DNA from: Leisingera sp. S132 | GTDB taxonomy: Bacteria; Pseudomonadota; Alphaproteobacteria; Rhodobacterales; Rhodobacteraceae | Assembly (NCBI RefSeq): GCF_025144465.1 | Contig: NZ_CP083553.1 | Span: 578,501-642,500 of the forward strand | Direction: 5' to 3' | DNA: 64,000 nucleotides | In this document: piece by piece, positions 55,130-57,752 of the stretch | Layout of the letters: each line of letters begins with the position of its first letter | Numbering within the stretch: the first letter of the stretch is position 1 | The notes under the pieces: model-generated | Database searches by the model: none | What the model was told of the DNA's origin: nothing | What the model saw: the letters and a program-made list of their open reading frames with translations, nothing else | Program-made: the position numbers and the translations under genes

Positions 55130-55320
55130 CCTCAGCAAGGTGCCGCCCCTAGGGGCGGAGAATTGGGAAGCTGGTGAAACTCCGGCACTGCCCCCGCAAC
55201 GGTGACCCCGGGCAAGGCATGGCAAAAACCACTGAAGCCGCAGCTTCGGGAAGGTGCCAGGCCCCGCCGCCAAAAGGCCCCGGGACAGTCCGGAAACCAG
55301 CCTTGCCCCGAAAACGTCAA
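55130..55320 (+). ncRNA. Cobalamin (B12) riboswitch
   Basis: Core signature present: GGGAAGCTGGTGAAACTCCG (55174-), CACTGCCCCCGCAACGGTGA, CCACTGAAGC, and AGTCCGGAAACCAGCC near 55297-55311. P1 is formed by GCAAGG (55135-55140) and CCTTGC (55311-55316). The domain is complete and on the same strand as the Rieske gene. Cobalamin riboswitches normally lower expression when adenosylcobalamin is abundant. Confidence 0.93.
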
Positions 55321-55339
55321 CCGCGGGCGGCGGCGGGGC

Positions 55340-55420
55340 GGTTGCAGGCGCGTGGCCTGCAATCTCTCTCCCCATGCCCGCAGCCAAGCCAACCTGCCGC
55401 GGGGATGCGGCAAAGGAGAG
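55340..55420 (+). promoter_or_regulatory. Candidate expression platform between riboswitch and gbcA
   Basis: TTGCAGGC-GCGT-GGCCTGCAA is a hairpin (~55341-55361) followed by TCTCTCTC, and TGCCGC-GGGGAT-GCGGCA sits directly ahead of AAAGGAGAG (55412-55420). Either could switch; control of termination or of ribosome access cannot be told apart by eye. Confidence 0.5.
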
Positions 55421-55426
55421 AAGCAG

Positions 55427-56662
55427 ATGCTTCACGACAGCGAAATTCTGGCCAAACTGGTCGCCCGTCAGAAAAACTATTCCCTGGAGCAGGCGTTTTA
55501 CACTGATCCGGGGGTGCTGGATCTGGACATGCGCCAGATCTTCTACCGCGAGTGGCTGTTTGCCATTCCGGCCTGCGAAATTCCGAAGGCCGGCAATTAT
55601 GTGACCCATCAGGTGGGGTCCTACAATGTCATCATCGTGCGCGGCACCGATGGTGAGGTGCGTGCGTTCCACAATGCCTGCCGCCACCGCGGGTCGGTTG
55701 TGTGCAAGGCCAAGAAGGGAAATTCGCCCAAGCTGGTCTGCCCCTACCACCAGTGGACCTATGAGCTGGACGGCTCGCTGCTGTGGGCGCGCGACATGGG
55801 GCCGGAGTTCGACGCCTCCAAACACGGGCTGAAGCCGGTGCATTGCCGCGATCTGGCCGGGCTGATCTATATCTGCCTGGCGGATGAGGCGCCGGACTTC
55901 GATGCTTTTGCCGCAGTGGCCCGCCCCTATCTGGAGCCGCATGACCTGGGCAATGCCAAAGTCGCCTATGAAAGCTCGATCATCGAGAATGGCAACTGGA
56001 AGCTGGTTTGGGAGAACAACCGCGAGTGCTATCACTGCGGCGGCAACCACCCGTCGCTGTGCCGGACCTTCCCGGAAGATCCGTCCGTCACTGGTGTCGA
56101 GGGCGGCGAGACCCCGCCGCACCTGCAAAAGCATTTCGACCGGATCGAGGCGGCAGGTGTGCCGGCCCAGTTCCAGATAGACGCGCGCGGACAGTACCGG
56201 GTGGCGCGGATGCCGCTGAATGAAGGCGCCGAGAGCTATACCATGGACGGCAAGGCGGCTGTCGCCAAGAAGCTGGGCCGGGTGCCGTTTGCTGATGCAG
56301 GCACGCTGCTGAAATTCCACTACCCGACCACCTGGAACCACTTCCTGCCGGATCATTCCATCGTGTTCCGGGTGACCCCGATCAGCCCGACCGAGACTGA
56401 GGTCACCACCAAATGGCTGGTGCACAAGGATGCGGTCGAGGGCCAGGACTACGACCTGAATCGGCTGACCGAGGTCTGGGTTGCCACCAACGACGAGGAC
56501 CGCATCGTGGTGGAGGACAACCAGCGCGGCATCAACTCACCTGCTTATGAACCCGGCCCCTATTCGGAAGTGCAGGAAAGCGGCGTCATCCAGTTCTCCA
56601 ACTGGTACGCTGAACACCTGACCCGCGCGCTGACCGGCCGCCACCTGATCGCGGCGGAGTAA
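55427..56662 (+). CDS. gbcA: Rieske oxygenase, glycine betaine monooxygenase-like large subunit
   Basis: 411 residues. Rieske 2Fe-2S site: CRHRGSVV (CxH at ~85) and CPYHQWTY (CxxH at ~105). Mononuclear iron region [14 protein letters not shown] at ~201. Overall it resembles GbcA, which removes a methyl group from glycine betaine to give dimethylglycine and formaldehyde; homologous stachydrine or carnitine-type oxygenases are alternatives. ATG at 55427 follows AAAGGAGAG at 55412. A cobalamin riboswitch lies ~110 bases ahead. The reductase gene follows six bases later. Confidence 0.85.
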
Positions 56663-56666
56663 GCAG

Positions 56667-57752
56667 ATGGGACTGCAGGCCAATTTCGAGACGCTGGATG
56701 AAACCCTGGCGTGGAAGGACGACGAGATGCTGGAATGCGTCTCAGTCGTGCCGGAAGCGCCGAACACCGCCACCTTCAGCTTCCGTGCGCCTTCCGGCGC
56801 GTGGTTCAAGTATCAGCCGGGCCAGTTCCTGACGCTGGAGCTGCCGGTGCCGGGTGAAACCGTCTGGCGGACCTACACCATCAGCTCCTCGCCGTCGCGG
56901 CCGCTGTCGATCTCGGTGACGGTGAAGGCGCAGGGAGACAGCATCGGTACCCGCTGGATGCTGGACAACCTGCGCCCGGGCATGTTCCTCAAGGCCTCTG
57001 GCCCGGCGGGCGTGTTCACCCTGCCGAAACGCCCGAACGGCAAGTTCCTGTTCATCTCCGCTGGCTCCGGTATCACGCCGAGCCTGTCGATGACGCAGTA
57101 TCTGTTTGACCGCGGCCAGTCGCCTGACGTCTGCTTCATCAACTGCGCCAAGCGGCCCAGCGAGATCATCGCGCGGCGCCAGCTGGAAGGCATGGCGGCG
57201 CGGGTGCCGGGGATCAAGCTGCATTTCGTGGTGGAAGAGGACGACCCCTATCAGGTCTGGACCGGCTACCGCGGGCAGCTGAACCAGATCATGCTGGGTA
57301 TCATTGCGGGGGACTACCTGGAGCGCGAGGTCTACTGCTGCGGGCCGGAGCCGTTCATGCAGGCGGTGCGCGACATGCTGAACGGCCTGGGCTTTGACAT
57401 GGAGAATTACAACCAGGAAAGCTTTGGCGCGCCGGTGGAGACCGAGGCTGATGCGCCGGAGCTGGACGATGTGGTTCCAGAGGAGACCGCGGCCGCCGAG
57501 ATCAGCTTTGCCGCGTCGGGCGTCACTTCCGCCTGCACCGAGACCGACACGGTGCTGGCAGTCGCCAAGGCCTCGGGCCTCAACATCCCGTCAGGCTGTA
57601 CCTTCGGCATCTGCGGCACCTGCAAGGTCAAGAAGACCGCGGGCGACGTGCATATGGTCCACAACGGCGGCATCTCGGAAGAGGACATCGAGGCGGGGTA
57701 TATCCTGGCCTGCTGCTCCAACCCGATCGGGCGGGTCGAAGTGGACATCTGA
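56667..57752 (+). CDS. gbcB: Ferredoxin-NAD(P)H reductase component, GbcB-like
   Basis: 361 residues. FAD/NAD-binding reductase domain at ~15-250 (VWRTYTISSSPSRPLSISVT; FLFISAGSGITPSLSM; VYCCGPEPFMQAVRDML) and a C-terminal plant-type 2Fe-2S ferredoxin domain with Cys in SGCTFGICGTCKV and ILACCSNP. It feeds electrons to the Rieske oxygenase encoded immediately upstream. Confidence 0.9.
   Translation: MGLQANFETLDETLAWKDDEMLECVSVVPEAPNTATFSFRAPSGAWFKYQPGQFLTLELPVPGETVWRTYTISSSPSRPLSISVTVKAQGDSIGTRWMLDNLRPGMFLKASGPAGVFTLPKRPNGKFLFISAGSGITPSLSMTQYLFDRGQSPDVCFINCAKRPSEIIARRQLEGMAARVPGIKLHFVVEEDDPYQVWTGYRGQLNQIMLGIIAGDYLEREVYCCGPEPFMQAVRDMLNGLGFDMENYNQESFGAPVETEADAPELDDVVPEETAAAEISFAASGVTSACTETDTVLAVAKASGLNIPSGCTFGICGTCKVKKTAGDVHMVHNGGISEEDIEAGYILACCSNPIGRVEVDI

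Follow-up and report, generated by a model that had tools for sequence, protein, structure and literature searches.

The window analysed here, a 64,000-nucleotide stretch of the Leisingera sp. S132 genome, contains a cobalamin riboswitch directly 5' of the gene for a Rieske oxygenase and the gene for its reductase partner (Table 1). The first-pass annotation had described a complete B12 riboswitch core at this site, with P1 strands GCAAGG and CCTTGC, standing before these two genes and not before genes for B12 synthesis or uptake. Both parts of that description hold. The Infernal search with Rfam model RF00174 that it had called for (cmscan, whole window) returns a match (E = 4.4e-25) that covers model positions 1-189, the full length of the model, and scores far above the gathering cutoff (104.5 versus 31.5 bits). 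The P1 strands lie at 55135-55140 and 55301-55306, and the reductase gene begins four bases past the end of the oxygenase gene.

Table 1. Features of the riboswitch-oxygenase locus, in window positions.
Feature	Position	Strand	Basis or remark
TetR-type regulator	53758-54309	-	upstream of riboswitch, pointing away
RibD_C-domain protein	54313-54849	-	upstream of riboswitch, pointing away
Cobalamin riboswitch aptamer, variant subtype	55121-55319	+	RF00174, 104.5 bits; subtype signature (GAGAATTGGGAA; CAACGGT; CCGGAAACCAGCC)
Probable P13 hairpin CCGC-GGGCG-GCGG	55321-55333	+	motif CCGC, 3-7 bases, GCGG
Second hairpin GCAGGC-GCGTG-GCCTGC	55344-55360	+	sequence; appears in predicted fold
Anti-Shine-Dalgarno TCTCTCC	55365-55371	+	complementary to GGAGAGA 55415-55421
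Hairpin TGCCGC-GGGGAT-GCGGCA	55395-55412	+	directly 5' of Shine-Dalgarno
Shine-Dalgarno region GGAGAGA of oxygenase gene	55415-55421	+	sequence
Rieske non-heme iron oxygenase, 411 aa, Stc2/3n0q subfamily	55427-56662	+	PF00355, PF00848; ATG preceded by AGGAGA
Flavin/2Fe-2S reductase partner, 361 aa	56667-57752	+	FAD, NAD and Fer2 domains

The oxygenase has the Rieske and ring-hydroxylating domains of a Stc2-like Rieske demethylase, and it is closest to Stc2 and 3n0q. The closest solved proteins, which share its subfamily in the tree, are PDB 3n0q (754 bits) and PDB 3vca and 4qup (663 bits), the latter two being the stachydrine demethylase Stc2. With the GbcAB systems of Pseudomonas and Chromohalobacter it shares related sequence and the combination of a Rieske oxygenase with an FAD/2Fe-2S reductase, and the same type of chemistry is expected. 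However, the oxygenase reaches 521.8 bits against the GbcA model NF058607 (equivalog cutoff 670) and the reductase 365.8 bits against the GbcB model NF058606 (cutoff 500), so the label "GbcAB-type" given in the first pass is too specific. Two Salinicola genomes, one Halomonas and one Marinomonas encode a GbcA of 683-825 bits together with a subfamily copy of 459-482 bits; because both occur in the same four gammaproteobacterial genomes, they are two separate enzymes, and an identification of the window oxygenase as true GbcA is rejected. In the tree the window protein groups with Leisingera and Loktanella proteins; 3n0q falls in a set close to these, and the clade with Stc2 is more deeply nested. 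Unlike the window locus, none of 21 other members of the Stc2 clade examined has a riboswitch, and many of them adjoin LysR or OYE-type genes. The alignment columns that separate a SoxB-context clade from the Stc2 clade are mixed in the riboswitch-bearing members; they do not settle the substrate and were dropped as an indicator of it. The oxygenase is a probable quaternary-ammonium N-demethylase, and since it falls below the GbcA cutoff and lies with 3n0q and Stc2, either glycine betaine or proline betaine may be its substrate. A different contig of the genome encodes another Rieske oxygenase that is only distantly related (36% identity; L007, G000:C4:138024-139217), whose match to the GbcA model spans one in-frame TGA.

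The first-pass annotation had also suggested a search of further Roseobacter genomes for this pair, which does recur in them. A survey of 199 genomes of the family yielded 43 loci in 42 genomes with an oxygenase homologue at E 1e-100 or better, and RF00174 matches lie directly upstream on the same strand in 17 of the 43. A custom model, R1, built from 24 sequences of which 17 are oxygenase-linked and which may therefore favour that subtype, recovers the same linked switches in this survey (16 besides the window's own, which was not rescanned). With R1, a riboswitch is found upstream in 23 of 80 named loci listed from a larger number, the first 15 entries among them. These relatives include Leisingera, Ruegeria, Phaeobacter, Sulfitobacter, Shimia, Roseibium and others; one of the 23 switches (L095) is weak (41.5 bits) and apparently degenerate, and in an Ensifer genome a second copy of the gene likewise has a riboswitch. 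Of 38 loci with a riboswitch that were examined, 37 also have a homologous reductase. An alignment of 17 sequences has compensatory changes at 23 of 44 predicted pairs, and this covariation together with the recurrence in 17 of 43 loci indicates that the pairing of switch and operon is more than chance.

On a 126-sequence tree (L054, which has an internal stop, was left out of the trees) the presence of the riboswitch changes 12 times, compared with a mean of 33.6 in shuffles, and at least nine of these changes fall on well-supported branches. Riboswitch presence is thus clustered on the tree, yet it has been gained or lost repeatedly, and its use as a marker of a single oxygenase clade is rejected. 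The many homologues without a riboswitch and the 12 label changes are what might be expected if the element were a nonfunctional relic that stands before the operon by accident. We give this explanation almost no credence in view of the covariation and of a sequence signature that is retained in 37 of 39 linked switches and persists before proteins down to 58% identity.

This signature defines a discrete variant of the aptamer in which a U-A pair is replaced by G-C and J6/3 reads AAA. The core CAACGGT carries its G in all 39 oxygenase-linked switches (one reads CATCGGT), a set that includes near relatives, whereas nearly all canonical switches have U. GAGAATTGGGAA is present in 37 of the 39, as is CCGGAAACCAGCC, which gives the AAA sequence of J6/3. 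The change from U-A to G-C is compensatory, with columns 91 and 195 paired in 17 of 17 sequences. For comparison, 60 switches of the 42 surveyed genomes that are not linked to the oxygenase were read, a nonrandom sample taken down a score-ordered list that skips some read earlier. Among them, the U-A pair occurs with J6/3 AGA in 54 and with J6/3 AAA in two, and the linked combination of G-C pair and AAA occurs in none, with four switches that are not fully readable kept in the denominator. The two unlinked switches with a canonical U-A pair and J6/3 AAA (L248 and L250) are possible intermediates of the variant.

Across the 199 genomes, 26 contain the 16-base core with G, at 27 sites in all. 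Seventeen of these sites precede the oxygenase, five have a canonical J6/3, and the other five combine the same base pair with J6/3 AAA before a small uncharacterised ORF, one of them with a slightly different GATAATTGGGAA. A restriction of the subtype to the oxygenase is therefore rejected. The five small-ORF sites are L191, L192, L199, L201 and L206, and three of their ORFs were read by eye instead of with the gene caller. Small proteins of 92-100 aa also stand behind cobalamin riboswitches at L056:12371-12673, L222:7320-7622, L216:1061-1357 and L220:9444-9722. These proteins have no Pfam match; at L056 and L222 the riboswitch is canonical and the small ORF lies before a split metH. Relatedness between the small ORFs of these canonical sites and those of the variant sites was judged by eye, and no homologue of the small protein was found in the window's genome.

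J6/3 lies opposite the upper axial ligand and influences whether adenosyl- or methylcobalamin is preferred. The linked riboswitches could be a new aptamer subtype tuned to another form of the cofactor, such as methyl- or hydroxocobalamin, in place of adenosylcobalamin, and would then read the methyl-carrying corrinoid pool of a competing MtgC route. This idea is tentative and, on balance, doubtful.

The leader between aptamer and start codon has an architecture that fits translational repression. Of 37 leaders, 32 have a P13-like motif (CCGC, 3-7 bases, then GCGG or a near variant) that lies no more than 60 nt from the end of the aptamer; the count excludes L095 and L146, in which that end is unreadable. 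The loop of P13 could form a kissing interaction with L5 (CCCCC), to which it is complementary. The predicted fold has most of the anti-Shine-Dalgarno region in paired form, and the element is conserved in two Leisingera relatives. A permissive script finds a GGG-loop hairpin near the Shine-Dalgarno region in 25 of the 36 leaders besides that of the window, with a few weak cases. A pattern scan lists no intrinsic terminator on the plus strand between aptamer and ATG, and such a terminator was dropped from consideration. It is this combination of no listed terminator, a P13-like hairpin and an anti-Shine-Dalgarno element with which translational repression agrees. When P13 is forced or blocked in silico, the mean unpaired value of the Shine-Dalgarno region shifts slightly (0.31 versus 0.37), in the expected direction in 22 of 31 leaders, and that of the window's own leader is unchanged. 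A thermodynamic model of the switch was consequently dropped as weak and, because the shift is so small, the direction of control, likely that of an off-switch, is inferred.

The opposite direction, in which cobalamin would turn the oxygenase on, must be weighed at this point, as folding with P13 forced or blocked does not discriminate between the two. One activating corrinoid riboswitch exists, that of A. halodurans cobT, although it is presented as the first of its kind, all those known earlier being repressing (PMC10653944). Activation would, moreover, mean that an enzyme without need of B12 is made when B12 is plentiful, and we consider it quite unlikely.

The gene neighborhoods suggest that this enzyme family is controlled in two ways. 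At 75 loci without a riboswitch, the oxygenase adjoins a LysR gene in 31, a TetR gene in 14 and a GbdR-like AraC gene in 12, and an OYE-type flavoenzyme in 29 and SoxB in eight. The same clusters are nearly absent from 38 riboswitch loci, with counts of zero for LysR, TetR, GbdR-like and OYE-type genes and one for SoxB, about 6 kb away. These counts come from a simple codon-score gene caller, unequal flank lengths and loci that are not all nonredundant, and one representative of each neighbor cluster was annotated, or two for some. Clusters count homologues only, and the TetR-type gene of the window is unrelated to the TetR cluster. Given that such neighbors accompany the riboswitch-free loci and almost never the others, it seems that members of the family are governed by protein regulators when they lie in catabolic clusters and by a cobalamin riboswitch when they stand alone. 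Genes for class Ib ribonucleotide reductase, a B12-independent enzyme, lie near the oxygenase at six of the 38 riboswitch loci compared with two of the 75 others, and five of these eight loci have a riboswitch just before nrdH.

Two loci have unusual arrangements. At L056 (G085:C25:149000-168500), three cobalamin riboswitches lie within about 3.3 kb and precede nrdHIEF, the oxygenase operon, and a small ORF with a split metH. At L068 (G170:C25), the oxygenase, the reductase and two split metH genes are codirectional behind one riboswitch, so that a B12-dependent enzyme shares a B12-riboswitch operon.

The 4.69-Mb genome has five RF00174 matches including that of the window. One precedes a 136-aa ORF followed by CobW and a 1081-aa ORF, another precedes CbtA with CobF two genes further, and another precedes an EitA-like substrate-binding protein that scores below the cutoff of that model. 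The strongest (131.8 bits) precedes a 134-aa cysteine-containing ORF (L010:3647-4051; G000:C1 about 3023647) that has no match in Pfam or NCBIfam. A signal shared with the CobW, CbtA and CobF genes is compatible with an explanation in which the products of the oxygenase feed B12 synthesis: betaine would be converted to glycine for 5-aminolevulinate by the C4 pathway, which operates in Alphaproteobacteria, and to one-carbon units for SAM, and the enzyme would be made when B12 must be built. We regard this as unlikely. No B12 synthesis gene was recognized among the annotated neighbor clusters of the 38 loci, which represent a minority of neighbors, and the presence of class Ib ribonucleotide reductase genes beside some of the operons points instead to isozyme replacement.

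Replacement implies a B12-dependent counterpart in the same genome, and relatives of one are present. In Ruegeria pomeroyi, of the same bacterial group, glycine betaine is demethylated by the cobalamin-dependent MtgBCD/MtgCDE system, and the report on it describes a corrinoid protein shared between this demethylation and methionine synthesis, a recent result, and a limited occurrence and low abundance of GbcAB homologues (PMC12478193). The window's genome encodes at least seven MttB-family proteins and one MtgC-like gene. A neighbor of this gene is taken for DUF1638 from its position only, and a PF02574 protein about 2 kb away is a candidate MtgE. With the MtgC query and the MtgC model, which gives matches in E. 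coli and eight other control genomes, neither MetH nor a second corrinoid protein was found in this genome, and it has no PF01717 match that would indicate MetE. The first-pass annotation had envisaged a choice between the oxygenase and corrinoid methyltransferases or MetH; the MttB, MtgC-like and MtgE-like genes agree with the former partner, and MetH as the latter was not found. With no MetH or MetE found, methionine would depend on MtgC and its cobalamin, both of which would be spared by a demethylase that works without B12.

The presence of MttB or of MtgC does not by itself separate the genomes that have the riboswitch. MttB and MtgC-sized genes are each present in all 17 riboswitch genomes and in 21 of 25 others, so presence as a separator is rejected (38 of 42 for each). 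MttB copies average 4.4 in the 17 and 1.6 in the 25 (p = 6e-5 ignoring kinship, a recorded value of 7 meaning at least 7). These copy numbers, the occurrence of MtgC in all 17 riboswitch genomes and the class Ib ribonucleotide reductase genes near the operon agree with the sparing of MtgC and cobalamin, in counts that are uncorrected for kinship. A kinship-paired test, from which L030 (a second copy in G084) was left out, has four independent pairs on the tree, too few for significance.

The several MttB paralogues also bear on the substrate. The same logic of control may apply with another methylated compound that has an MttB paralogue, such as proline betaine or carnitine, as the main substrate. 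This possibility deserves serious consideration, if short of being probable: the nearest characterized relative, Stc2, is by name a stachydrine demethylase, and no column that distinguishes the SoxB and Stc2 clades decides the matter. Nothing decisive stands against it, and it is compatible with the main proposal, given next.

Starting from what is established, namely the riboswitch, the operon, their conserved linkage and the relatives of a B12-dependent counterpart, we propose with moderate confidence that a translational off-switch releases a B12-independent demethylase at low cobalamin and so spares MtgC for methionine, with repression, substrate and sparing role all inferred. The variant riboswitch would repress translation of the two-component operon, whose products would demethylate a quaternary ammonium substrate (glycine or proline betaine) once, using O2 and NADH and releasing formaldehyde. 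When cobalamin is ample, P13 and the kissing loop would form, the Shine-Dalgarno region would be masked, and demethylation would proceed by the B12-dependent MttB/MtgC/MtgD system. A drop in cobalamin would let translation start and the oxygenase take over, leaving the single MtgC-like corrinoid protein and its cobalamin for methionine synthesis. Some observations do not favor this proposal. Many genomes whose homologue lacks a riboswitch likewise have MttB and MtgC, and the organism encodes B12 synthesis genes, so that it is unclear when cobalamin would run short. Nor does the isozyme idea predict the genes for MetH, itself B12-dependent, that stand behind the operon at two of the loci with a riboswitch.

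B12 riboswitches that control B12-independent isozymes are known from metE and from the nrd operons of ribonucleotide reductase. The present locus resembles these in having a cobalamin riboswitch before a B12-free enzyme with a B12-dependent counterpart in the same genome, but its target is a Rieske demethylase and its aptamer has a changed base pair and J6/3. The proposed counterpart differs from the oxygenase in turn, as MtgBCD/MtgCDE carry out cobalamin-dependent methyl transfer that does not use oxygen (PMC12478193). In that paper the word riboswitch occurs in the reference list only. No earlier report linking a cobalamin riboswitch with a Rieske enzyme or with betaine demethylation was found in the openly licensed literature, and one elsewhere is possible. 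The principle is known; what appears to be new is the target, together with the subtype of aptamer.

Under such a switch, the oxygenase would probably save scarce B12 for methionine. Were the aptamer tuned to methyl- or hydroxocobalamin, the switch would determine how much of the methyl supply from betaine is oxidized and how much goes into methionine. The locus would add a new target class for B12 riboswitches and an aptamer variant with a measurable ligand preference. Glycine betaine ranks among the major osmolytes of the sea, and if the proposed mechanism is true, B12 supply would directly control the route by which marine bacteria use it and the fate of its methyl carbon as formaldehyde or methyl-folate.
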